From an uncultured Selenomonadales bacterium (GTDB taxonomy: Bacteria > Bacillota > Negativicutes > Acidaminococcales > Acidaminococcaceae), in assembly GCA_900314855.1 (NCBI GenBank), contig OMWZ01000013.1, positions 1-64,000 of the forward strand: a stretch of 64,000 bases of DNA, given 5' to 3'. Position numbers and translations under genes: made by a program. The notes under the pieces are model-generated. The model made no database searches. It saw only the letters and a list, made by a program, of their open reading frames with translations, and was not told the DNA's origin. The number at the start of each line of letters is the position of its first letter. Position 1 is the stretch's first letter. Shown piece after piece: positions 29,937 to 43,803 of this stretch.

Positions 29937-32900
29937 TCAGAAGCCGACATGATATTGCACGCTGTAACGCTTTTGCGAATCCTGGTCCCGGGACACGGTC
30001 AGTGTGAGCCGGTCTGTCAGGGCGTACTGCGTGTATACGTTATCCGTATCGCCGTTGAAACTGCTCGTATAGCCAAAACTCCAGCGATCGGTCAAATTCT
30101 TGGATACGAGCCAATTGTACTGCTTTTGCTCGTCCCTCGTCAAATCTTTTTCATGGTTCGTCGTGAAATCGACGCCGTTTTCCACGCGGCCCAGATAAAT
30201 ACGGAACTCATCGATATGGAGAGTGCGCCGGATCATTTGTTCCACGTCGCCCAGCATGCCCGCCTGCAGGCCCGCAATGAGCAGGTTCTGCATATCTTCG
30301 CCCGTCACGGAATTGCCGCCCACGGAGAACCGCTGCAGCAGGAGCATCCGCATCAAGGTCTGCTGCGGCAAGCTCGGGTCGGAGTGCAGCTTCCAGTCGA
30401 GTTCTTCCTGGGACAACGGCCCGGAAATATCGCAGGCGACACGGTACCGGCCAAAGCGTGTATGGGCGGAGAGGTTGACATTGGGCAGGAAGGTGCCCGG
30501 TTCAATCCACGTCAGGCGGCCTTCGTCGATCTGGAAGTCCGTCCGCAGGTACGTCAGATGCCCTTTCGTCGCTTCGATCCGGCCGTCCACCAAGGGGAAA
30601 AAGGTGCTGTTCCGGACCTGTAGGTTCCCCTGGAGCCACATATCGTACAGGTACTTGTTGTACAAGTGGACCTTCGGTCCCAGGGTGACGTTCACGTCGA
30701 GGCCGATGTTGCTCGGCTCGTCGCTCAGCTCCGGAATGGTCGGCAGATTCACGAGGACATCGTCCAGGCGCAGGTCCAGTTTGACCTTGGCCCGGTACCC
30801 TTCCCGCAGGAATCCTTTCGTATCCTGCCCCCGCAGGACGTAGTGTTCCGGCGCGAGCAACAGGTTGCCGTTCAGGCGGGCCTGGACGTAGGCCGAATCG
30901 ATTTGCGCATTCTGCAGGGCCAGTTGGAAGTTATAGCCCCGGTCCGCCGCCGCCTGCAGGTCATAGGTCCCGCCGGCGGCAAGAAAGCCGTTCCCCATGC
31001 GGGCCGACAGGTTGCGGACATTGACCAGGCTGCCTTCGAAGTCCACGTCGAGGTGGATATCATCGATGACATTGCGCAGGTCGCGGAATTTCAGGGTACC
31101 ATTTTCCACCTGGAGTTCCCCGTACATTTCCGGGGCATCGAGGGTTCCCCGGATGTTCAGGGTCCCCTTCGTATCCCCCGTTCCCCAGTCGATAAAGGAA
31201 AAAGTGTTCAGGACGGCCAGACTGGCTTCGTTGAAGTCGACGCGCAGGTCCATCTGGGCGTCCGGGTCCTTGCGCTGCGATTTCGCGCGGAACAAGTCCA
31301 GGGGAACTGCCCCGGACGCGGTCAGTTTGTATACATCCCGTTCGACCAGGAGCTGGTCCAGATGGATAATCCCCCCGTCCATGGTCAGCATGGCCGTCGC
31401 CCGATCGAAATTCGCGCCGGTCACCGTGCCGTCCGTGATTTCCAGGGAGCCATTGCCCGACGGGTTATCGAAAGATCCCTGCAGCTGTACGGCCGCGTTC
31501 AACAGGCCCGTAAAGGCGACGGGGCGCTGCATCAGGGCCGTAATAATCGCCGGATTCGCGTCCACAGCGCCCGCTTCGAGACGCAGGGTGCGCTTCCCGA
31601 AATCCACGACCCCCTGGGCAGCGAGAATGCCATCGTCGGGGAACATATCTTCTTCCTGCAGCTTCAAGGTCCGGATGTTGAGGACGCCCCGCAGGAAATC
31701 CGCCCGCAAGGTCATGCGGTCATAATGCTGCTGGTTGATGTAGATGTTGCTGATCAGCCCGTCCAGCAGCATCGGCTGTTCCGGGCCGTTGAAGGCGATC
31801 AGGCCTGTCGCCGTGCCGCGGATGGGCAGGTCGACCCGGGCCATCCGGAGCAGTTTCGTCAGGTCCGCCGAAGAGAATCCCACCCGGCCCCGCAGGTCCT
31901 TGTGGGGCACATCGAGGGTCAGGTTGGCGCGGTATTCCGCCGTTTCGCCGTCCGGGCCGGCCTGTTGGAAGGAAAGTTTCAATTCATTCGTATCCTTGCC
32001 ATTGCCGCGGACCGTCCCTTCCAGACGCTGCACGGAAACGCCATTCAGGGAGAAGGAATCGCTCGTCACGGTCCCGTCGAAGAGCGGCGCCTCCAGGGTG
32101 CCTCCCAGATGGCCTGCCACGGACACGTAGCCTGCCAGCCGGGCCGTTTCATCCTGCACCGGCAGTTTGGCCAGGTCCAGGTCCCGCGCCTCCGCTTCGA
32201 AATCCAGGTTCCGGGCCTTATCCATAGTGCCGCCCAGACGAACCGTCGCGGACAGCGAGTGGACCAGGCCGTCCGTGACGGTCAGGGCCCCGTCCTCATA
32301 GAGGTAGCGGCCCGATACATCGGCAACGAGATAGCCCATGGCGCTGCCGTCGCTCCAGTGAAGCGAACCATCCATGCGGGGATGGGCCAGGGTCCCGCCG
32401 AGGGTCATCGTATTGGTCACGTTGCCCGTCGCCGGGAACGTCTTGTCGAAACCGCCGGCCTTCAGCAGGGGCTCCAGGCGCACGTTTTCCGTCGCCACCG
32501 TCAGGGCGAGGGCCGGGTCGGCGGCGCCTGCGTCGACCGTCCCGGCCAGCACGTGCCGCCCCTGGGGCATGCGGACCACAAAGTCCCGCAGGGTAACCCG
32601 ACGGCCCTCCACAAGGACCGGTCCGGCCGCTTCCGGGATCTCCACGCCCCGGACGCGAAGGTTCTCCGCCCGCAGGCGGGTCCGCGCCGACACGGCCGCC
32701 CCCTGGGCCTGCACCTCGTATTCGCCCGACAGGAACCCTGCGCCGCTTTCGCCGGCCAGGGCCAGGAAAGGCCGCAAGTCCAGCTTCGCCAGACGGCCAT
32801 GCAGGGCGTACGTCCCGTCCCGCCCGACCGTGCCTGCTGCCGTCAGGGACCCCTCCCCGACGCGGGCCGACAGGGTATGGAGGACCGCGCCTCGTTCCGT

Positions 32901-34208
32901 CAGTTCCGTATCAAAATTGAGGACGCGCGCCTGCAGGCCGCGCCAGGTCAGTTCCGCCGTCCGGGCAGCCAGGGACGCGGCCAGTTTGCCCGTCTTCCAA
33001 TCCAGGGTGCCGGCCAGGGCCAGGTCCGCCTGGACCCCCACAGTTTCCACACCCTTGCCGAGCGGCACGGAGGCGGTCACCCGATCCACCCGGGCCTGGG
33101 CCGTCAGGGCCCCGCTCCGCAGATCGTATTCGCCGCCGGCCCGGATCGTGCCGCCGCCATATTCCGCCACGGCCTCGCGCAGGAAAGCCGTCCCGTCGAC
33201 CAGGGCGCCGTCCACCCGGACGTGGCGCGCCGTCTGGTCCCCGTAAGTCAGGACCGGTGCCTCGGCCCGCAGGGTCCCGTTCAGATGGTTCCTGTCGTGG
33301 AAATCCACGTCGCCGTCCAGCCGGACCGTCTGTCCGTCCACGGTGACGGTCAGTTCTTTCGTGGCCAAGGTATGGTCCGTCCCGGTCACGGTCCCCGTCA
33401 CGCGGAAGGGCCAGTCCCTGCCGCCGTACGGATAGACGCCGTGGACATCCTGCAGGGTCGCGAGGCCCTGCAGGAGCGTATCGGTTCCGTCATTCTGCCA
33501 CCAGCCGCTCAGGCCCGTCACGGCCCCGCCGGCGTCACGGACGCCGCCGTAGGCCTTCGCGAGCGCGTCAAAGGGGGCCAGGTCCACCCGGTTCGTGGCA
33601 AAGTGGATCTTGCCGACCCCCCGGGTCGTCACACCGCCGGTCACATGGACCGGTTCCAGGGCGGGGTTCGTCACGGTAAAGTCCAGGTCAAAGACAGGAT
33701 TGCGAGCGCCGTCCACCTGCCCGTTGATCCCGAAGTCCCAGGCGCCTTGCGGCAGGGAAACCCGCGCCGTCCCGTCCTCCACGGCCAGGACGCCATAGAA
33801 AGGGGTCGTGTCCGACTGGGACGGTTTCAGCAGGTTCTGCAGGTTCCATTGGTGGTTTTCTTCCTGGACGATATGGAGTACGGGACGCCGCAGCGTCAGG
33901 GAGGCAATCGCCTTGTCCAATCCCTCGACGGCCCGGAAAGGATGCACGGTCACCTTCGTTTCCGGCAGTTCCGCCACGGCGCGGCCGGCCCTATCGCGAA
34001 TGTCCACGTCACGGACAAGCAGGGACAGTCCGCCGGGCCATTCGATGGACCCGATACGGACGCTTCCGTTGAGGTAATTGGCTGCCTGCCGCTCCGCGTA
34101 GGGACGGGCCTCCTGCAGCACGCGGGGCATGACGGCATGGAACACGGCCAGGCAGGCGACAGCCAGGACTGCCACGACGCCGAGTATCCATTGCATGGTG
34201 CGGTTCAT
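29937..34208 (-). CDS. tamB: TamB-like intermembrane lipid transport protein
   Basis: This 1423-residue AsmA/TamB-family protein has an N-terminal membrane anchor (about 5-27), a very long array of beta-strands forming the lipid groove (about 40-1150) and the conserved TamB/DUF490 C-terminal domain (about 1150-1423) ending in YHVGF. TamB proteins bridge the two membranes and move phospholipids; in proteobacteria the partner is TamA. No tamA is present here, so BamA, encoded nearby, is the likely partner (inference). The ATG at 34208 has AAAGGAAAG upstream. Confidence 0.92.
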   Translation of the reverse strand: MNRTMQWILGVVAVLAVACLAVFHAVMPRVLQEARPYAERQAANYLNGSVRIGSIEWPGGLSLLVRDVDIRDRAGRAVAELPETKVTVHPFRAVEGLDKAIASLTLRRPVLHIVQEENHQWNLQNLLKPSQSDTTPFYGVLAVEDGTARVSLPQGAWDFGINGQVDGARNPVFDLDFTVTNPALEPVHVTGGVTTRGVGKIHFATNRVDLAPFDALAKAYGGVRDAGGAVTGLSGWWQNDGTDTLLQGLATLQDVHGVYPYGGRDWPFRVTGTVTGTDHTLATKELTVTVDGQTVRLDGDVDFHDRNHLNGTLRAEAPVLTYGDQTARHVRVDGALVDGTAFLREAVAEYGGGTIRAGGEYDLRSGALTAQARVDRVTASVPLGKGVETVGVQADLALAGTLDWKTGKLAASLAARTAELTWRGLQARVLNFDTELTERGAVLHTLSARVGEGSLTAAGTVGRDGTYALHGRLAKLDLRPFLALAGESGAGFLSGEYEVQAQGAAVSARTRLRAENLRVRGVEIPEAAGPVLVEGRRVTLRDFVVRMPQGRHVLAGTVDAGAADPALALTVATENVRLEPLLKAGGFDKTFPATGNVTNTMTLGGTLAHPRMDGSLHWSDGSAMGYLVADVSGRYLYEDGALTVTDGLVHSLSATVRLGGTMDKARNLDFEAEARDLDLAKLPVQDETARLAGYVSVAGHLGGTLEAPLFDGTVTSDSFSLNGVSVQRLEGTVRGNGKDTNELKLSFQQAGPDGETAEYRANLTLDVPHKDLRGRVGFSSADLTKLLRMARVDLPIRGTATGLIAFNGPEQPMLLDGLISNIYINQQHYDRMTLRADFLRGVLNIRTLKLQEEDMFPDDGILAAQGVVDFGKRTLRLEAGAVDANPAIITALMQRPVAFTGLLNAAVQLQGSFDNPSGNGSLEITDGTVTGANFDRATAMLTMDGGIIHLDQLLVERDVYKLTASGAVPLDLFRAKSQRKDPDAQMDLRVDFNEASLAVLNTFSFIDWGTGDTKGTLNIRGTLDAPEMYGELQVENGTLKFRDLRNVIDDIHLDVDFEGSLVNVRNLSARMGNGFLAAGGTYDLQAAADRGYNFQLALQNAQIDSAYVQARLNGNLLLAPEHYVLRGQDTKGFLREGYRAKVKLDLRLDDVLVNLPTIPELSDEPSNIGLDVNVTLGPKVHLYNKYLYDMWLQGNLQVRNSTFFPLVDGRIEATKGHLTYLRTDFQIDEGRLTWIEPGTFLPNVNLSAHTRFGRYRVACDISGPLSQEELDWKLHSDPSLPQQTLMRMLLLQRFSVGGNSVTGEDMQNLLIAGLQAGMLGDVEQMIRRTLHIDEFRIYLGRVENGVDFTTNHEKDLTRDEQKQYNWLVSKNLTDRWSFGYTSSFNGDTDNVYTQYALTDRLTLTVSRDQDSQKRYSVQYHVGF

Positions 34209-34314
34209 AGACGTACGCTTTCCTTTGCTGGTCACTGAAAATCCGGGTCCGGGCGCCGCGCGGCGCCGTCATTCCCGGAAAACAAAAGTACAAACTCCCC
34301 CATGTTACAAAACC

Positions 34315-34398: not shown

Positions 34399-35925
34399 TT
34401 ACTCCGTCTTACCGGCAGCGGCGGTCTGCCCCGCCTGGTCGGCCTTGGCGGCGGTTTTTTCCGCCTTGGCGGCCTTGCGCCGTTCGTCGCGGGCCTTTTC
34501 ATAGGCGTCGACACGGTCCGCGATGGCCTGGGCCTGCGTGCTCTCCAGCGTCGTGTCGTAGTGGTCTTTCGTCGCGCGGACACGGCTATACTTGTTCCCC
34601 GTGTCGTAGCCGTCCGGCCGGGCTTCGACGCCCATACTGGTCAGCAGGGCATTGTGCGACGTGTTGTAGTCGTACATCGCCGTGTTGTAGTTGTTCCGCG
34701 CCGTCAACAGGGCCACTTCGGCGTCCATGACGTCCGTGTTGGTGCCCACGCCGTTGGCGTAGCGGACCTGGGCAATCCGGTAGTTTTCTTCCGCTTCCGC
34801 CACGGCCAGTTTCGTCGTCTGGATGCGTTTCTCCGCCTCGCGCAGGTTGTTGTAGCAATTGCGCACATCGAGGCGTACCGTGTCGGCGTCCTGGCGGTAC
34901 GATTCTTCCGCCCGGAGCAGGTTCGCCTTGGCTGCGTCCACCTTGGAGCCCGTCACCCCGCTGTCGAAAACGGTCATGGACAGGTTCAGCACGGCGGCCC
35001 ATCTTTCGTCGTCGTCGCCGGGCCAGTGCCCGTTGGCCCAGTTATTCGACACGGTGCCGCTGACGGACGGCCGCCAGCCGGACTTGGCCGCGTTCACGGC
35101 CGCCTTGGCATAGTCCACCTGGAGCTTGCTCTGCTGCAGGTCGATGCGGTGCGTCAGGCCGTAGGAGACGCAATTTTCCAGGGTGCCGTCATAGGGGTTG
35201 TATTCCAATTTTTCCGTCGGTTCCAGTTTTGTGTTGTGGGGCAGGCCCATGTAGTTGTTCAGGGCGGCGACGGCATTGTCGTGCGCGTTCTGCGCCTGAA
35301 TCAGGCTCTGCTGGGCGTTCGTCAATTCCACCTGGCTGCGGAGCAGGTCGACCTTGGCCACGACGCCGACGTCGTACTGGGCCTGGACGTTCTTCAAATG
35401 ATCCCGCAGGTCCTGGACGGACTGCTGCCGCACATGGACACCATCGATGGCGGACAGGAGCGTGTAGTACGCGTCCGTCACATTCCGTTTCAGCTGGATG
35501 TAGGCCAGTTCCTCACCGAGGACGCTGCTGCGGTAATTCGCCCTCGCCTCGTCACGGGCGCCTTCCAGCTGCCCGCCCGTATAGATCGGCACGGTCAGGG
35601 ACACCACGTTGTTGTAGGTGTTGCCGATGCCCTTCGTACGCGCGCCGGAAGCCGTCAGCTGCTCTTCCCAGTAGCCGCCGCGGCCCGTGCTGTGGGTCAG
35701 GCGGACCGCCGGGCCAAAGCTTTCCCGCGCCGCGTTGAACGTCGCCCGGGCGGCGTCCGTGGCGTATTCCGCCTTCCGGATATCCGCGTGGGTCGCGTAG
35801 GAACGGCTCAGGGCCGTCTGCAGATCTATGGGCATGGCTTCCGCCGCGAAGGCCGACGGAACCAGCAGGAAGGACATCAGGGCGCCGAGCAGGGCCGCCC
35901 TTTTCCCATGAGTTGTGCGAGTCAT
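34399..35925 (-). CDS. tolC: TolC-family outer-membrane efflux protein
   Basis: This 508-residue protein of the OEP/TolC family has a signal peptide (about 1-28, ending AFAAE), two repeats of long helical hairpins and barrel strands (about 35-240 and 250-450) and a Lys/Ala-rich tail (about 465-508). TolC trimers form the exit duct of efflux pumps and type I secretion. No pump genes are nearby. The ATG at 35925 has GGAGGT six bases upstream; an ATG six bases earlier abuts the ribosome site. It has its own promoter with an operator-like repeat. Confidence 0.92.
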   Translation of the reverse strand: MTRTTHGKRAALLGALMSFLLVPSAFAAEAMPIDLQTALSRSYATHADIRKAEYATDAARATFNAARESFGPAVRLTHSTGRGGYWEEQLTASGARTKGIGNTYNNVVSLTVPIYTGGQLEGARDEARANYRSSVLGEELAYIQLKRNVTDAYYTLLSAIDGVHVRQQSVQDLRDHLKNVQAQYDVGVVAKVDLLRSQVELTNAQQSLIQAQNAHDNAVAALNNYMGLPHNTKLEPTEKLEYNPYDGTLENCVSYGLTHRIDLQQSKLQVDYAKAAVNAAKSGWRPSVSGTVSNNWANGHWPGDDDERWAAVLNLSMTVFDSGVTGSKVDAAKANLLRAEESYRQDADTVRLDVRNCYNNLREAEKRIQTTKLAVAEAEENYRIAQVRYANGVGTNTDVMDAEVALLTARNNYNTAMYDYNTSHNALLTSMGVEARPDGYDTGNKYSRVRATKDHYDTTLESTQAQAIADRVDAYEKARDERRKAAKAEKTAAKADQAGQTAAAGKTE

Positions 35926-35950
35926 CTTCATACCTCCATTTATTTTCTGA

Positions 35951-35968: not shown

Positions 35969-35998
35969 ATTATAAAAACAAATTTTTAGGGATGTCAA
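35969..35998 (-). promoter_or_regulatory. Promoter of tolC
   Basis: TTGACA (35993-35998), 18 bases and TATAAT (35969-35974) on the minus strand are both perfect consensus hexamers. They lie 26 bases below the mlaD stop. Confidence 0.92.
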
Positions 35999-36023: not shown

Positions 36024-37307
36024 TCAGAAATAGGTACGCAGACCCATATACACGTCGCCGGAATTCCCGTTGCGCACGTCCGTGCTTTCCACCGTCAGAT
36101 AAATGTCCGGCTTGAACTGATATTCCCCGCCCAGGCGGATTTTTAGGTCGTCCCAGTCGTAAAACTGGGAGTAGAGATGAAAATCGCGGTTCACATCGAA
36201 GCCGAGGCCGATGCCTTCGTGCCCCAGCATGGAGCCGGCGCTGACATCGAAACGGCGGAACTTTTTCCCGCCGTACAAGTCCAGCTTCGGATCGTCGCCC
36301 AGTCCCGACGCGCCGGCGTAGAGGTACGTCCCCTTGCCGGTCTTTTCAAAACGGAGTCCCGCGCTGCCGCGCCACTGGCCGTCATCCAAGCTGTGCAGCA
36401 GGTCCGCCCTGCCGTGGAAGTCGACCTTGTCCACGAAGGCTAGGGCCTTGTTGGCCCGGGCCGTCACGCTGCGCGTGTTATGCAGCGTCGCCTGGATATC
36501 CGCCTTCGTCTGCGGATCCCGGGCGACCTGGGCGAACAGGTTCGTCACTTCCTCCATATGCTGGCTTGTGGCCGCCAGATTCTGCGCCATCCGGGCCACT
36601 TCCCGGCCTGTGGCGCCGTTGTTGTCGACCCCGTTCAGGAGGCTTTCCACGTGGGCCGTCGTCTGGTTCAGGCGCACGGACATCTGGCTCAGCTGGGCTA
36701 CCATGTTCTTGATATCCGCCTGGTTGGCTTCCGCCGAATCGGCCATGACCTTCGTAAAGCGATTCAGGTTCTTGCTGATGTCCCCCATGGCGATAAAGCC
36801 TTCCCGCATGGACTGCTGGACCGCCTTGTCGCCGAAGATGTTGTTGAAAGCGTCCGCCACGCCTTCGACCTTCTCCATGACCTTTCCGGATGAGTTCATA
36901 AACTCATCCAGGCCGCCGCCGGGCGTCCCCGTCAAGTTGGAACCGGGCTTGACAAAGACGCCGCTCGCCCGCTCCGGCGGCTGAATCTGGACGAACTTTT
37001 CGCCCATGACGCCGTCCGAGCCGATGGAAAAAGACGAATCCATGGGAATCTGGACCTCTTTCTTCACATGCATGGTCACGACGACATGGCTGCCATCGAC
37101 CTTCATGTCCTTGACCGTCCCGACGGGCACGCCGGCATACCGCACCTGCCCGCCGGTCAACAACCCGTTGACCGAAGGATAGGTGACGTGCAAGTCATAG
37201 CCGCTGTCAAAGAGGCTGAAGGCCCCGAGAAAGCTGATCATCCCCGCCAGAAGGACGGCGCCGCCCAGGGTCAGGGCCCCTACTTTCACTTCACTGACCG
37301 ATTTCAT
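36024..37307 (-). CDS. mlaD: MlaD-type MCE protein with C-terminal beta-barrel-like domain
   Basis: This 427-residue protein has an N-terminal membrane anchor (about 10-30), an MCE domain (about 38-115, with GQVRYAGVPVGTV), a long helical/coiled stretch (about 130-290) and a strand-rich C-terminal domain (about 300-427, ending in Phe) that looks like an outer-membrane barrel. E. coli MlaD stops after about 180 residues. A trans-envelope MlaD with a fused barrel has been described in Veillonella, and this gene fits that plan. Such a protein would itself connect both membranes for phospholipid transport and remove the need for MlaC/MlaA. Its start overlaps the mlaF stop (ATGA). Confidence 0.9.
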   Translation of the reverse strand: MKSVSEVKVGALTLGGAVLLAGMISFLGAFSLFDSGYDLHVTYPSVNGLLTGGQVRYAGVPVGTVKDMKVDGSHVVVTMHVKKEVQIPMDSSFSIGSDGVMGEKFVQIQPPERASGVFVKPGSNLTGTPGGGLDEFMNSSGKVMEKVEGVADAFNNIFGDKAVQQSMREGFIAMGDISKNLNRFTKVMADSAEANQADIKNMVAQLSQMSVRLNQTTAHVESLLNGVDNNGATGREVARMAQNLAATSQHMEEVTNLFAQVARDPQTKADIQATLHNTRSVTARANKALAFVDKVDFHGRADLLHSLDDGQWRGSAGLRFEKTGKGTYLYAGASGLGDDPKLDLYGGKKFRRFDVSAGSMLGHEGIGLGFDVNRDFHLYSQFYDWDDLKIRLGGEYQFKPDIYLTVESTDVRNGNSGDVYMGLRTYF

Positions 37308-38062
37308 CGTACAAAAGCTCCTTCCGGCTCCTCGCCCGTAATGAATCCCCGGATCAGAGGATTGGACGAATTCCTGAATTCTTCCGGCGTCCCCACGGCG
37401 GCCACCTTGCCTTCGTCCAGCAGGGCCACCCGGTCCGCCGCCACATAGACCGATTCCATGTCGTGCGTGACCAGGATCGATGTCACGTTGTATTTATGCT
37501 GCGTTTCCCGGATGAGTTTGCTGATACTCATGGTCCGCAACGGATCAAGCCCTGCCGTCGGCTCGTCGTAGAGGACGATGCGCGGCCGGAACGCCAGGGC
37601 GCGGGCCAGGCTGACGCGTTTCTTCATGCCGCCGGACAATTCCGCGGGAAACTGGGATTTGGCGTCGAGCATGCCCACATCCCGCAGCAGGGCGTCGACA
37701 CGATCCCGGATTTCCGCCTCGGACAAGTGGAAATGCTGCCGCAGTCCGAAGGCTACATTTTCCCCCACATCGAGGAAATCGAAAAGGGCCGAATACTGGA
37801 AGACCATGCCGACGTGGCGGCGGATCTCATTCCATCCCTCCTCCGGCAAATGGGTCACGTCGCGGCCGGCCAGGAACACACGGCCGCCCGTCGGTTCCAG
37901 CAGGCCCGTCAGGACCTTCAGGATAGTGCTCTTGCCCGTTCCCGAAGGGCCGATGACCGCCATGGTCTCGCCGGGCACGACGTCCAGGTCGACGCCGGTC
38001 AGGACCCGTTTCTCCCCAAAGGAAACCTGCAGATGCTGCAGGGATATTTCGGAAATCGCCAT
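37304..38062 (-). CDS. mlaF: Phospholipid transport ABC ATPase MlaF
   Basis: This 252-residue cytoplasmic ATPase drives the Mla transporter. Walker A GPSGTGKST (residues about 35-43), signature LSGGMKKRVSLARAL, Walker B IVLYDEPTAGLDP and ILVTHDM are intact; the GGMKKR variant of the signature is typical of MlaF/Mkl ATPases. It lies 10 bases after mlaE and overlaps mlaD by four bases. Confidence 0.94.
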   Translation of the reverse strand: MAISEISLQHLQVSFGEKRVLTGVDLDVVPGETMAVIGPSGTGKSTILKVLTGLLEPTGGRVFLAGRDVTHLPEEGWNEIRRHVGMVFQYSALFDFLDVGENVAFGLRQHFHLSEAEIRDRVDALLRDVGMLDAKSQFPAELSGGMKKRVSLARALAFRPRIVLYDEPTAGLDPLRTMSISKLIRETQHKYNVTSILVTHDMESVYVAADRVALLDEGKVAAVGTPEEFRNSSNPLIRGFITGEEPEGAFVR

Positions 38063-38072
38063 AATGCCTCAC

Positions 38073-38849
38073 TCAATCGCCTACGTAGAGCAGGACCGTC
38101 ATAAAATAATCCGTAATGAAAATCAGGATGATGGACAAGACCACGGAGGCCGTCGTCGCCAGGCCGACCCCTTCGGCGCCCTGCTTCGCGTGAAGCCCCT
38201 TGTAGCAGCCCACGATGGCGATGATGGCGCCGAACACGACCCCTTTGATCATCCCGCCGAACAGGTCAAAGGAATCGCACAGGGTCTTGATGGAATTGAT
38301 GTACGTGAAAGAGCTGATGCCGGCGTAGAAATGGGCCACCACATAGCCGCCGGCATTGCCGATGAAGTTGCCGAACACGATGAGGACGGGCATCATCAGG
38401 GAAATGGCCAAAAAACGCGGGCAGACGAGATAACGGACCGGGCTCGTCGCCATGACCCGCAGGGCATCGATCTGCTCCGTGACCTTCATGGTCCCCAGCT
38501 CCGCCGCGATGGCCGCGCCGATCCGGCCGGCCACGACGACGCCCGACAGGACGGGCACCAGTTCGCGTCCCATGGCAATGGCCACGATGCCGCCGACCGT
38601 GTTCGACGCCCCGAGGGTAACGAATTCCTTCGCCGTCTGGACGGAGAAAACCATGCCCACGCAAAGCATCGTCAGCAGAACGATCGGCAGGGAGTCCGCC
38701 CCCAGGAGGGCCATCTGCCGCAGGGTTTCCCGGCCATCGACCGCGCGGAGGCGCTTCAGGACATCGGCGAAAAGAAGCGTCATGCCCCCGGCGGAACGGG
38801 AAAAGTCGATCATTTTGCGCCCGATGGCGGCGCACATATCCTGCAGCAT
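38073..38849 (-). CDS. mlaE: Phospholipid transport permease MlaE
   Basis: This 258-residue integral membrane protein of the MlaE/YrbE family has five to six membrane helices and the conserved RIGAAIAAELGTMKVTEQ region near the middle. It forms the permease with MlaF and holds MlaD. The start follows AAAGGAG. The operon order is lipoyl-like, S55 peptidase, mlaE, mlaF, mlaD. Confidence 0.94.
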   Translation of the reverse strand: MLQDMCAAIGRKMIDFSRSAGGMTLLFADVLKRLRAVDGRETLRQMALLGADSLPIVLLTMLCVGMVFSVQTAKEFVTLGASNTVGGIVAIAMGRELVPVLSGVVVAGRIGAAIAAELGTMKVTEQIDALRVMATSPVRYLVCPRFLAISLMMPVLIVFGNFIGNAGGYVVAHFYAGISSFTYINSIKTLCDSFDLFGGMIKGVVFGAIIAIVGCYKGLHAKQGAEGVGLATTASVVLSIILIFITDYFMTVLLYVGD

Positions 38850-38899: not shown

Positions 38900-40693
38900 T
38901 CAGCGGGAGGATTTGACCTTGACCGTAACCGTCGTTTCCCCGTCGATAATATAATCCAGGGGCGTCACCTGCCGGTGGGGGCCGCCGGCCATCATCGCCG
39001 TCAAGGACGGGCCCGAGGTTCCCTCCGGGCCGGTCGGGGCCGTCGCCGTCTTGCGGGCGGCGTATTCCACGATCAGGTCATTGTTGCGGACCGCGTTGTT
39101 CACTTCGCGCACATAATCACGCAGGCGGAGCTTGCGTTTCTTTTCCGCTTCCTTCGCCTTGGTCTTTTCCTTGTCCGTGTCGCCGGAAGGCTGTGGATCC
39201 TCGCCGTCGACGGTCGGGACTCCGGCCGCCTTCTGGTTGCGCAGCAGTTCCTGGATCCAGTTCAGGGAAGCGCCGCCCTTGACGGCGAGACGGACCGTGC
39301 CTGCCGCGTCTTCCGGCAGTTTGTAGGAAATGGTACGGACCATCGGCGCGACACGGTACGGTTTCAGCGTCACCTCGAGATGGATCGTGTCGCCGGCCCG
39401 GGGATGTTCTTCCCGTACTTTGGCCGACTGGATTTCCGCCACCAGGCTGTCCGTGCTCAGATCGACCTTGACGTCGACCTGCTGGATCCGCACGGCTTCC
39501 AGTTTGTTGCGCAGGAAGACGTTCACGGCCTCCTGCAGTTCCGCCGTGACGGAATCAAAAAGCTTGTCCGGGCTGTAGAACATATTCTGCCGCGTAACGC
39601 GCAAGGGCTTTCCCTCGCTGTCCGTGGCGGCGATATCGAAGAAAATCCGGCTGGACCCTCCCGCGGCCGTATCGGCGACCTTGGAGGCCAGGGACAGGGC
39701 CGCCGCGGAAATGAGGTCCGGCGCCAGCAACGGGTCGTGGACCACCTGGACGCGGGCCGTGGCGCTGGCGGAACGGTCCATGTCCGTAGCGGCGATGTAG
39801 ACCGGGATGGCCGCCGGACGGCCGCCTGTTTTCCCGGCCACGCCGGCGCTCCGGTCCTGGAAAACGGTTCCGACAGGGGCGCCGAGGGACCCGACCTTAT
39901 AGGAAGTCTGCAAGTTGGGCAGCGAGGCGAGAATCCAGGCCTTGGTCAGGAAGAAATCCGCGTCCCCCCGTTGGACAAAGGGATGGCCGAAGGCCAGGAT
40001 CCGGCCTTGTTCATCCGTCCAGGTGACCGTGCCGATGGCGCCCATGGTCAGGTCCCCCGTCATGAGGGCTACCCCGACGGCGCTGCCAGGCTGCAGGTCC
40101 GCCACGAATTCCGCCGTGCCGGGAACGGCCGCCTCAGAAACATCCAGCCCCTGCCTAGCCAGGTCCCGTTTCAGGACCGCCAGGGCCTGGTCCGTGAAAC
40201 CGCCGGCCAAAAGCCGCGTCCCCACGGGCAGGCTGCCTTCCCTGGCGGCCGCCGGGAGCAGGCCGCGGCGCGGCACGGCAGGATTCAGCAGGGCCAGCAT
40301 GGCCTCGATGGGCTGGAGGAAACAGTAGCGCGGATCGTTAAAGGCCTTGCCGAAGGCGACAGCCCCGGCCAGCCGGCCGTCCAGGTAGACGGGACTGCCG
40401 CTCATGCCCTGGGAGATGCCGCCGCTGCGTTCCATGACATCTCCGCCGGCCTTGATCAGGATCTGGTACCCCTGGGCATCATTGCCCGTGACGCCCAGCA
40501 CTTCCACGGGGAAGGTTTCAATCGTATCGCCCTGCAGGACCGTTTTGGCATAGCCCGTCATGCCCGGGCGGATCTGTTCCACCGGCAGAATGGGCGTGCG
40601 GGCGGCAGCCGTCCCCGCCAGCCGGGCCGTGCCTAGCCAAAGCGCGCAGAAGGCGCACAGGACGCACAAGATATTCCTAAGGATGTGTCTCAA
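38900..40693 (-). CDS. SpoIVB-type (S55) serine peptidase domain protein with permuted motif order
   Basis: This 597-residue protein has an N-terminal signal or anchor (about 5-30), the S55 serine motif SQGMSGSP (Ser98) followed by GRLAGAV, and a later His motif ILAFGHPF (His237) preceded by GAIGTVTW. In SpoIVB, as I remember it, the His block comes before the Ser block; here the order is reversed. The rest (about 270-597) is strand-rich, with a charged Lys/Glu segment near 500-530. It is probably envelope-exposed and its substrate is unknown. The start is TTG at 40693 with AGGAG seven bases upstream. It is co-transcribed with mlaEFD. Confidence 0.8.
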   Translation of the reverse strand: MRHILRNILCVLCAFCALWLGTARLAGTAAARTPILPVEQIRPGMTGYAKTVLQGDTIETFPVEVLGVTGNDAQGYQILIKAGGDVMERSGGISQGMSGSPVYLDGRLAGAVAFGKAFNDPRYCFLQPIEAMLALLNPAVPRRGLLPAAAREGSLPVGTRLLAGGFTDQALAVLKRDLARQGLDVSEAAVPGTAEFVADLQPGSAVGVALMTGDLTMGAIGTVTWTDEQGRILAFGHPFVQRGDADFFLTKAWILASLPNLQTSYKVGSLGAPVGTVFQDRSAGVAGKTGGRPAAIPVYIAATDMDRSASATARVQVVHDPLLAPDLISAAALSLASKVADTAAGGSSRIFFDIAATDSEGKPLRVTRQNMFYSPDKLFDSVTAELQEAVNVFLRNKLEAVRIQQVDVKVDLSTDSLVAEIQSAKVREEHPRAGDTIHLEVTLKPYRVAPMVRTISYKLPEDAAGTVRLAVKGGASLNWIQELLRNQKAAGVPTVDGEDPQPSGDTDKEKTKAKEAEKKRKLRLRDYVREVNNAVRNNDLIVEYAARKTATAPTGPEGTSGPSLTAMMAGGPHRQVTPLDYIIDGETTVTVKVKSSR

Positions 40694-40739
40694 AGTGATT
40701 CTCCTACGTAGTGATGTGAACCGCAGCGCTGTTTCCTGC

Positions 40740-41048
40740 TTACGGCTCGATTTCCGCGACGGCCTGGCCGCCGGAGATGGTCTGCCCCGCCTGGACGGAA
40801 ACGGACTTCACCGTACCGGATACGGTCGCGCGGGACGCCGGCATGGCGCCCATCAGGGTCTTGACCTGGACGAGCACGTCGCCCTGCCGCACGGTCTGTC
40901 CGACCCGAACGAGGCCTTCGGCCTGGACGACGCCGCTCAAGGTGCTTTTCTGGACCACGCCGGCCGCGAACGCCAGGGAATAGAGTCCCACCGCCGCCGC
41001 AGCCACCGCCGCCGCCATCACATATTTCCACGTTGCCAATCTGCGCAT
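40740..41048 (-). CDS. Small exported biotinyl/lipoyl-like protein
   Basis: This 102-residue protein has an N-terminal signal/anchor (about 8-28) followed by one small beta-barrel of biotinyl-lipoyl type (QAEGLVRVGQTVRQGDVLVQVKT ... VSVQAGQTISGGQAVAEIEP in outline). The usual biotin site AMKM is absent, so it is unlikely to be biotinylated. The fold is also used by HlyD-type adaptors, but the coiled coil is missing. ATG at 41048 has GGAGG upstream. It is first in the Mla operon, and its function is unknown. Confidence 0.72.
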   Translation of the reverse strand: MRRLATWKYVMAAAVAAAAVGLYSLAFAAGVVQKSTLSGVVQAEGLVRVGQTVRQGDVLVQVKTLMGAMPASRATVSGTVKSVSVQAGQTISGGQAVAEIEP

Positions 41049-41150: not shown

Positions 41151-41179
41151 ATTATACACCGAAACAGCCTGCTTGGCAA
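41151..41179 (-). promoter_or_regulatory. Promoter of the lipoyl-like/S55/mlaEFD operon
   Basis: TTGCCA (41174-41179), 17 bases and TATAAT (41151-41156) on the minus strand, about 103 bases above the first gene. The 224-base gap (41049-41272) otherwise holds only GC-rich sequence after the preceding gene. Confidence 0.88.
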
Positions 41180-41272: not shown

Positions 41273-42667
41273 CTACTTGCGGAAGACGCCCAAGGCGATG
41301 CTGACGGGGCGTTCCTGCCCGTCGGAGGGCTGGTTGCGGACCACGCCGTCCAGGACGAGTTCGGAAGAACCACCGCCGTCAAAGTTTACGGCATCCCTGG
41401 CGCCGAAACGGCGCAGGTACCAGGCAAACTCTTTCAAGGTCATGCCGGCCGAATACTGGCTGCGGCCGTCGACCACCATCAGGATCAGGGAGCCGTCCGC
41501 CTTGACGCCGGCCCCCGTGCGGGGCGCGCGGCCGTTGGCAATGTCCGGCGCCATCTGTTCCTGGGCGGAGCGGACGTTGATCGTGCCGTCCTCCACCAGG
41601 GAGGGCCCGGCGCCGACGACCATGCGCAGGAGATCCGCAGCATGGTTGCCCAGGGTCTGTGTCACCGTGACGCGGTCCCCGGGCCGGAGGCCCGCCAGGG
41701 CATCCGCCTTGGCGCCGTGGGCCGACAGGACGAGGGCCCCCGGCTCCAGCGCCATGTTGCCCTGGGTCGACACGGCCGTCACGCGGCCCTCTTTCACCTT
41801 GATTTCCCGGCCGAAGGCGTTCGTCCGCGTCGACGGCCCGTAATAGCGGTTATAGACGATCAAGTCCTGGGCCAGCCGCTGGCGGTTAACGCCCGTAACG
41901 GCCAGGGCCGTCCCCGCGCCGGCACGCACCGTGCCGCTATAGGACAAATCCCGCAGGACCTGCCAGCGGCCCGCGGCATCCATCCCCAGGGCGCTGCGGG
42001 GCGTACTGTCGCCGCCGAAAAACTCCCCGTCCCACTTGCAGTTGCCGATGACCCAGCCATCCGTATCGAAGTAGCAGGCATTGACGGCGGCGCGGGCGCC
42101 GGCCCCCTGGACAGCCTTGCTCAGCCGCCCCCGTCCGTTCCGGTCCAGGGCCGCAGAAAAAGGTTTCACGAAATAGGCGCTGTCCGGCGCCAGGGTCAGG
42201 GCATAGAGCCGCACGACCTTGCCGTCCATGTCATCCTGCCAGTATGTGTATTGCAGGCCCTGGCCCAACTCCCGCGTTTCGCGGATGATCTGGATCCGGT
42301 ACAAGTCGAGGACCAGCCGGTCGGGCTTTTTCAGGAGCAGCACCCGGTGCTGCCCGGCCTTGGTCAGGTCGACTTCGAGACGGCATTTGTCCCGGCCCCG
42401 GGGAAGGACCGTGAGGGATCGTACGGCCTTGTCTTTCGGCGTCTGGCTGAACTTTTTCAGGGTCTTCGTATCCAGGTCCAGACGGAGCGTCGTCCCGTCC
42501 ACATCTTCCTTGTACGTCACGGGCGCGTCCAAATCCAGGACGACGCGCACCTTCGTCGGGCTCGTACTGACCCGCAGACTCGTGACGGCCGCCTGGGCCG
42601 TCGCCTGCCCCCACAGCAGGACAGCGCCGAGCAGGCCTGCCAGCCGTCTGATGCTTCTTCTTTCCAT
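41273..42667 (-). CDS. Exported AMIN-like plus phosphodiester glycosidase (NAGPA) domain protein
   Basis: This 464-residue protein has a signal peptide (about 1-27, ending AQA), an AMIN-like beta domain (about 28-120, often binding peptidoglycan or polymer) and a NAGPA-type domain (about 170-464) with the family motifs NACYF, PRTGAG and FDGGGSSELV. NAGPA-family proteins cleave GlcNAc-1-phosphodiesters or related cell-wall links. The target is unknown, but murA and mreB upstream point to the cell wall. ATG at 42667 has AAAGGA upstream. A terminator lies just above it, so expression is probably by readthrough. Confidence 0.83.
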   Translation of the reverse strand: MERRSIRRLAGLLGAVLLWGQATAQAAVTSLRVSTSPTKVRVVLDLDAPVTYKEDVDGTTLRLDLDTKTLKKFSQTPKDKAVRSLTVLPRGRDKCRLEVDLTKAGQHRVLLLKKPDRLVLDLYRIQIIRETRELGQGLQYTYWQDDMDGKVVRLYALTLAPDSAYFVKPFSAALDRNGRGRLSKAVQGAGARAAVNACYFDTDGWVIGNCKWDGEFFGGDSTPRSALGMDAAGRWQVLRDLSYSGTVRAGAGTALAVTGVNRQRLAQDLIVYNRYYGPSTRTNAFGREIKVKEGRVTAVSTQGNMALEPGALVLSAHGAKADALAGLRPGDRVTVTQTLGNHAADLLRMVVGAGPSLVEDGTINVRSAQEQMAPDIANGRAPRTGAGVKADGSLILMVVDGRSQYSAGMTLKEFAWYLRRFGARDAVNFDGGGSSELVLDGVVRNQPSDGQERPVSIALGVFRK

Positions 42668-42686
42668 GCGTTCCTTTCTTCTTTTC

Positions 42687-42734
42687 AAAAACGGGAAAAC
42701 GGCCGGATGGGGCAATTGCCACCATCCTGGCCGT
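42687..42734 (-). terminator. Terminator after mreB
   Basis: A 12-bp stem with one bulged base (42699-42710 with 42722-42734) is followed on the minus strand by TTTTCCCGTTTTT. It lies 46 bases after mreB and above the NAGPA-type gene. Confidence 0.78.
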
Positions 42735-42780
42735 CTTCCGGAATCCCGGCTGCCGGGCGGTCCGTCCGGACAGCCCCGCG

Positions 42781-43803
42781 TCAAAACATGGCGTTGCTGA
42801 AAACCGTCCCCGGACGCAGCTTATCGAGATTTTCCAAGGCCTTGCCCGTACCGACCGCCACGCAGTCCAAGGGGTTTTCGGCCACAATGACCTTGATGCC
42901 CGTGTTCTTGCTCAGCATATGGGCCAGGCCGCCCAGGAGGGCGCCGCCGCCGGTCAGGCAGATCCCGTTTTCCACGATGTCCGCCGACAGCTCGGGCGGG
43001 CACTTTTCCAAAACGGAACGGATCCGGCCAAAAAGGCTGTCCAGGGGCTCTTGCAGGGCTTCGCGGACATCCTTCGACGTCAGGGTCAGGCTGACCGGCA
43101 TGCCGTTGACCGTATTCTGGGCCGTCATGTCCATGGATTTGGGCACCGCGTCGGGATCCACGTTACCGACGTCGATCTTCACCTTCTCGGCCAGGGTTTC
43201 GCCGATAAGGCAGTTATATTCCTTTTTCACATAGCGGACGATAGCTTCGTTGAACTTGTCGCCGCCGATCCGGACCGAATCGGAATCCACGACGCCGCCG
43301 AGGCTCAGGATCGCGATGTCCGTCGTGCCGCCGCCGATATCGACAACCATCTTGCCCGACGGGACCATGATGTCCAGCCCGGCGCCGAGGGCCGCCGCCA
43401 GCGGTTCCTCAATCAGGTACGTCTTGGACACGCCGGCCTGGATTGTCGCTTCCAGGACCGCCCGCTTTTCCACGGACGTAATATTCACGGGGATGCAGGT
43501 CATGACGCGGGGCCGGAAAAAGAAGCTCTTCCCCGCCACCTTGTGGATCAAATATTCCAGCATCTTCTGCGTAATCGTATAGTTCGCAATGACCCCTTCG
43601 CGCAGCGGCCGCACCGCGACGATGCCGTGGGGCGTGCGGCCCAGCATCTCCCGGGCTTCCGAGCCGACGGCAAGGATCTTGTTCGTCTTTTTTTCCACTG
43701 CCACGACGGAAGGCTCGTTCAGCACGGTCCCCTTCCCTTTCACATATACGAGGATATTGGCAGTCCCCAAATCAATTCCAATGTCTGTCGATCCGCTGAA
43801 CAT
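42781..43803 (-). CDS. mreB: Rod-shape actin MreB
   Basis: This 340-residue bacterial actin organises lateral cell-wall synthesis. The phosphate-1 motif DIGIDLGTANILVYV, phosphate-2 VVDIGGGTTDIA and adenosine motif LTGGGALLGGL are intact. It lies 19 bases after murA; the murA-mreB/mbl pairing is also seen in Firmicutes. It could equally be called mbl. No mreC/mreD follow. Confidence 0.94.
   Translation of the reverse strand: MFSGSTDIGIDLGTANILVYVKGKGTVLNEPSVVAVEKKTNKILAVGSEAREMLGRTPHGIVAVRPLREGVIANYTITQKMLEYLIHKVAGKSFFFRPRVMTCIPVNITSVEKRAVLEATIQAGVSKTYLIEEPLAAALGAGLDIMVPSGKMVVDIGGGTTDIAILSLGGVVDSDSVRIGGDKFNEAIVRYVKKEYNCLIGETLAEKVKIDVGNVDPDAVPKSMDMTAQNTVNGMPVSLTLTSKDVREALQEPLDSLFGRIRSVLEKCPPELSADIVENGICLTGGGALLGGLAHMLSKNTGIKVIVAENPLDCVAVGTGKALENLDKLRPGTVFSNAMF

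Follow-up and report, generated by a model that had tools for sequence, protein, structure and literature searches.

A probable circularly permuted SpoIVB-type serine protease encoded beside envelope genes in diderm bacteria

Just upstream of an mlaEFD cluster in the 64,000-nucleotide stretch of DNA analysed here (the window), a gene at positions 38900–40693 on the minus strand encodes a 597-residue protein that carries the catalytic blocks of the S55 protease SpoIVB in reversed order. This locus raises two questions: whether the two halves of the protease are truly permuted, and what such a protein does beside lipid-transport genes. The gene starts with TTG, preceded by GGAG at 40704–40701, seven bases 5' of the start, and a signal peptide covers residues ~1–30. 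The protein comprises a Ser-bearing barrel (residues 32–138; 40280–40600), a linker or insert of ~60 residues (139–197; 40103–40279), a His-bearing barrel region (198–322; 39728–40102) that holds a six-strand barrel at 205–289, and a C-terminal β-rich region (323–597; 38903–39727) with weak Ig-like matches, all encoded on the minus strand. Ser98 (codon 40400–40402) lies within SQGMSGSP, and His237 (39983–39985) lies within AFGHPF, with GAIGTVTW ahead of it; the His237 motif follows the Ser98 motif by 139 residues.

The preliminary description placed the His block first of the two in SpoIVB, and this is correct. His precedes Ser by ~140 residues in 27 of 27 SpoIVB proteins checked, seven of them encoded by sporulating Negativicutes and 20 by members of another Bacillota phylum, and the B. 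subtilis protein places His236 before Ser378 (PMC12502668, PDB 9lnf). The L004 SpoIVB, with a GHI variant of the motif (GALGHI), was missed by the motif pattern and shows the same His-then-Ser order by eye. The window protein reverses the order of MEROPS S55 and PF05580, in which the His block precedes the Ser block. PF05580 matches occur in 40 of 41 related genomes, seven of which also encode a full-length SpoIVB covering nearly the whole profile, so that both orders coexist in sporulating Negativicutes. The swapped order is thus a real, family-wide difference from SpoIVB that marks a separate clade.

The Ser half is homologous to the C-terminal barrel of SpoIVB beyond doubt. PF05580 (Peptidase_S55) matches residues 33–132 with an E value of 1.3e-11 and 45.4 bits (cut-off 25), and the match uses only profile positions 110–209 of 210, the C-terminal half of the family; the Ser98 motif is therefore the end of the family placed at the start of the protein. 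NCBIfam spore_IV_B (TIGR02860) reaches 39 bits over the same stretch, against a curated cut-off of 305. The Ser half aligns with SpoIVB at E 7e-17 (hhalign), and its profile reaches 9lnf at E 2.5e-13. Superimposition of residues 32–138 onto 9lnf residues 311–422, the C-terminal barrel with its terminal helix, covers 105 residues at 27% identity (VIA-align; Z 6.5, rmsd 2.3), with the SpoIVB motif GGIxQGMSGSP shared between the two. The Ser barrel also aligns, at Z ~6–7, with the C-terminal barrels of HtrA/Deg proteases (DegP-DegS, S1C), which are likewise periplasmic PA-clan two-barrel serine proteases but differ in their native barrel order, their PDZ domains and their sequence family. No PDZ domain was detected in the window protein (E up to 1), whose signal peptide runs directly into the Ser barrel; in SpoIVB, a PDZ domain precedes the protease domain.

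The AlphaFold2 model of the full-length protein, built from a 73-sequence alignment (pLDDT 87.9, pTM 0.85), predicts two confident chymotrypsin-type barrels in swapped order, with strands spanning 46–128 and 205–289; the His half modelled alone has a pLDDT of 92.2. These predicted strands, together with VIA-align and Foldseek matches, support the two six-strand barrels of the PA clan. In both barrels the predicted strand order is that of the chymotrypsin counterpart, and the likeness extends to a C-terminal helix: the last Ser-barrel strand (123–128) is followed by a helix (129–136) that resembles the one closing chymotrypsin-type proteases at their C-terminus. In the model, His237 occupies the loop between strands three and four of its barrel and Asp280 the turn between strands five and six, sites that correspond to those of chymotrypsin His57 and Asp102. 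Foldseek with the full model returned no match at E below 0.001, as expected for swapped halves, since Foldseek aligns sequentially.

The His half matches the N-terminal barrel of SpoIVB weakly but coherently, and in register. Alignment of profiles from 73 permuted and 27 SpoIVB proteins (hhalign) is collinear over 89 columns, with a weak score (P 0.0026) that two of 300 column-shuffled decoys equal. GTVT...FGHPF...QDRxAGIAG of the permuted family faces GTLT...LGHVI...KNTxFGIYG of SpoIVB, pairing His with His, Asp280 with Asn, and GxxG with GIYG, so that the two barrels share the pattern GTxT...GH...GIxG. Whole-protein hhalign against only seven SpoIVB proteins did not detect the His half, which the deeper profile detected weakly. 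When His-half fragments are scanned singly, PF05580 is the family matched most often (12 of 73, best E 0.0015), and the four matches inspected fall at profile positions 13–85 or 13–61, in the N-terminal half. Foldseek with the isolated His-half model gives 9lnf the highest probability (0.98), though at an E value of 0.31. VIA-align also pairs the His half with other chymotrypsin-type barrels; the two barrels of this fold are alike and hence indistinguishable by fold alone. The absence of 9lnf among the 50 VIA-align matches listed for the His half is uninformative either way, because those listed are full of same-fold C-terminal barrels from other chymotrypsin-type proteases. With a clear match for the Ser half and a weak, in-register match for the His half, the circular permutation suspected at the outset gains support.

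The 73 aligned homologues come from Negativicutes, Halanaerobiales, Synergistota and other groups, and the only Ser, His and Asp residues invariant among them are Ser98, His237 and Asp280 (codon 39854–39856). The sequences and the model suggest a canonical triad in permuted order, with Ser98 as the predicted nucleophile, His237 as the predicted general base and Asp280 as the predicted third member. Opposite the Asp280 column, all 27 SpoIVB proteins have an Asn, which is Asn290 in B. subtilis numbering as counted along the alignment to 9lnf. The 2025 crystal structure of SpoIVB left its third catalytic residue open: Asp363 lies ~24 Å from His236, and Thr393 was proposed instead (PMC12502668). 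Among the permuted proteins, the Asp363 position (Asp85) is Asp in 39 of 73 and Pro in 21 of 73, and was rejected as the triad acid. The Thr393 position, which should correspond by topology to chymotrypsin Ser214, is occupied by Ala, Gly or Ser and is not conserved. Given the variability at both positions, we propose Asp280 as the third triad member of the permuted family and its invariant counterpart, Asn290, as a candidate for that role in SpoIVB.

In a tree of Ser halves, a single branch with support of 100/100 separates 55 permuted proteins from 27 SpoIVB proteins, so that one permutation event explains the split. The tree itself gives no direction; the permuted form is most likely the derived one, because the other PA-clan families known to us have the His-first order. 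In a Bacillota phylum whose members may or may not have an outer membrane, the permuted form and Omp85/BamA are each found in 36 of 149 genomes: both occur in 34, one without the other in two and two, and neither in 111 (Fisher p 9e-29, a value inflated by the common descent of the genomes). Most of the remaining genomes of this set carry SpoIVB. Of 41 Synergistota, 40 have the permuted form and show no additional SpoIVB-like match, and most Negativicutes searched carry it without a full-length SpoIVB. Omp85 was detected in 17 of 19 carrier genomes tested, 15 of the 19 from outside Negativicutes. In the groups surveyed (Bacillota and Synergistota), the permuted gene is a marker of diderm lineages; it is tied to the outer membrane, whereas SpoIVB is tied to sporulation, and it is not confined to endospore formers as SpoIVB is. 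No relatives were found on plasmids, and S55 genes have been reported in Acidobacteria (PMC8841776). In one Synergistota genome (G229, C1:697696–699335), the coding sequence of the permuted protease is divided between two overlapping frames, owing either to an error in sequencing or to disruption of the gene. Two metagenome-assembled genomes labelled Acholeplasmataceae (L046 and L047) carry an outer-membrane gene cluster of Acidaminococcaceae type, and their labels look wrong.

The gene order described earlier for the window, with a lipoyl-like protein upstream and mlaE-F-D downstream, is confirmed, all genes lying on the minus strand. Upstream are mreB (42781–43803), a gene for an AMIN and phosphodiester glycosidase (NAGPA/DUF2233) protein (41273–42784), and a gene for a HlyD/biotinyl-lipoyl-like barrel-sandwich protein (40740–41048; 102 aa from ATG). 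The last of these, short and exported, sits between the NAGPA gene and the protease; no MKM lipoylation motif was seen in it. Downstream, the mlaE permease gene (38073–38849) begins 50 bp after the protease gene and is followed by the mlaF ATPase gene (37304–38062), mlaD for a 427-residue MCE protein (36024–37307), a tolC-like outer membrane protein gene (34399–35931) with its own promoter-like site at 35998–35969, and a tamB-like gene (29937–34235) recognized by tblastn to homologous loci that hold it at the same position; the tamB-type homologue adjoining the protease in L095 matches Pfam TamB. A 1190-codon open frame (30666–34238, plus strand) runs antisense to tamB and probably arises from codon usage at high G+C. 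A sigma-70-like sequence, TTGCCA-17-TATAAT (41151–41179, minus strand; 11 of 12 positions matching), stands immediately ahead of the lipoyl-like gene, with the next promoter-like sites preceding tolC and tamB. The proposal of one promoter for the lipoyl-like, S55 and mlaEFD genes is plausible, this site being a consensus match, and the arrangement suggests a single transcription unit.

The gene is not an invariable companion of mlaEFD. In a survey of 80 loci, mlaE follows directly in 50 of 53 loci from Negativicutes outside Selenomonadaceae, and mlaEFD is present in all 49 of these loci with 6 kb readable, usually followed by tolC and tamB; mlaE is also next in three of three Synergistota loci. 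The gene directly downstream is murA, not mla, in Selenomonadaceae, tamB in Halanaerobiales, and bamA in several other Bacillota. Upstream, mreB and the NAGPA gene are found in most Negativicutes and other Bacillota, the NAGPA/DUF2233 gene being a steady neighbour also in loci without mla. A role in lipid transport or envelope assembly, as first suspected, is supported by this synteny and by the co-occurrence with Omp85, in a form broader than mla that takes in tamB and bamA. The neighbourhood is no proof of a lipid-transport role, and Selenomonadaceae break the linkage to mla.

The gene is not wholly new. Antunes et al. described a large conserved envelope locus of diderm Firmicutes (PMC5007114), and a Veillonella parvula homologue, Vpar_0521 (COG3064), was flagged in 2016–2017 as an 'N-terminus SpoIVB' protein of unknown role, conserved in diderm Firmicutes and recovered in the outer-membrane fraction together with Vpar_0519 (DUF2233), Vpar_0525 (TolC), Vpar_0526 (TamB) and Vpar_0527 (BamA) (PMC5491611). 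By its description as having an N-terminal SpoIVB domain, the locus numbering and the Veillonella loci, Vpar_0521 is the same gene as that of the permuted protease, and Vpar_0519 is likely the Veillonella counterpart of the NAGPA/DUF2233 gene. The passages of that study concerning Vpar_0521 list only the N-terminal SpoIVB domain and a C-terminal DUF1090, with no mention of a permutation, a His barrel or a triad (PMC5491611). The words protease, peptidase and SpoIVB do not occur in a Veillonella Mla study, where the mla phenotype is sensitivity to SDS/EDTA (PMC10665443), and a limited literature search found no report of a permutation in an S55-like gene or of a naturally permuted chymotrypsin-fold protease.

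We consider it probable that the protein is an exported, permuted S55 serine endopeptidase with a Ser98-His237-Asp280 triad, acting in envelope processing in diderms, and three other explanations were weighed against this one. Were the Ser barrel alone an S55 relative, with the AFGHPF region an unrelated β domain, the permutation would be illusory; the His half of the window protein indeed has no match in a single-sequence Pfam search, and its profile gives only chance matches among PDB sequences and misses 9lnf. The collinear, in-register profile alignment, the PF05580 N-terminal-half matches from several homologues, the Foldseek result for 9lnf, and the invariant His in the β3-β4 loop of a six-strand barrel all argue the other way and make this explanation very improbable. 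A different possibility keeps the permuted S55 fold but has it act in trans, with Ser and His barrels from separate chains paired in a domain-swapped, dimer-dependent enzyme whose activity is perhaps switched by envelope stress. The inter-barrel linker, which varies in length among homologues, is compatible with such a swap, and the confident full-length monomer model speaks against it, leaving the arrangement unlikely.

The protein might also have kept the S55 fold as a scaffold or chaperone that lacks catalytic activity and serves the machinery of outer-membrane assembly. Its location in the outer-membrane fraction, its gene's position beside tolC, tamB and bamA (PMC5491611), and the long C-terminal β-rich region after the barrels fit such a role. 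In a scaffold, loss of one or more of Ser98, His237 and Asp280 would be expected; all three are instead invariant in 73 sequences, and we give the scaffold, too, little chance of being correct.

For the permuted endopeptidase, the following mechanism is proposed. The protein would be exported to the periplasm and act there as a serine endopeptidase belonging to the SpoIVB (S55) lineage, with barrels permuted such that the Ser barrel comes first and the 60-residue linker, joining the old C-terminus to the old N-terminus, leads into the His barrel, with the cut at the old inter-barrel junction. We infer that the triad assembles, that Ser98 and His237 come into contact and that the enzyme is active, His237 and Asp280 being presented from β3-β4 and β5-β6 loops as in chymotrypsin. 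The protease would be dedicated to outer-membrane assembly or lipid transport in the diderm envelope, where its inferred substrate would most plausibly be a part of the neighbouring MlaD/TolC/TamB/BamA machinery that it trims or licenses. SpoIVB acts between two membranes, the kind of compartment to which both proteins are exported, and triggers a downstream process, the activation of sigma-K; a comparable role for the diderm enzyme could be the cleavage or maturation of a component of the Mla/Tam/Bam machinery. A fuller account, in which one ancient permutation separated forespore SpoIVB from a diderm housekeeping enzyme with a canonical triad, Asn290 is the third SpoIVB residue, and the permuted enzyme controls MlaD/TamB/BamA assembly, is more tentative, and we regard it as possible but somewhat doubtful as a whole.

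The permuted protease is no oddity; its gene is conserved in diderm Firmicutes and Synergistota and follows the distribution of the outer membrane. It provides a named target for how diderm Firmicutes build and control their envelope, and suggests a testable identity for the third member of the SpoIVB active site. One shared ancestor would connect a protease of sporulation with one linked to the outer membrane, a connection relevant to the relation that has been proposed between outer membranes and sporulation.
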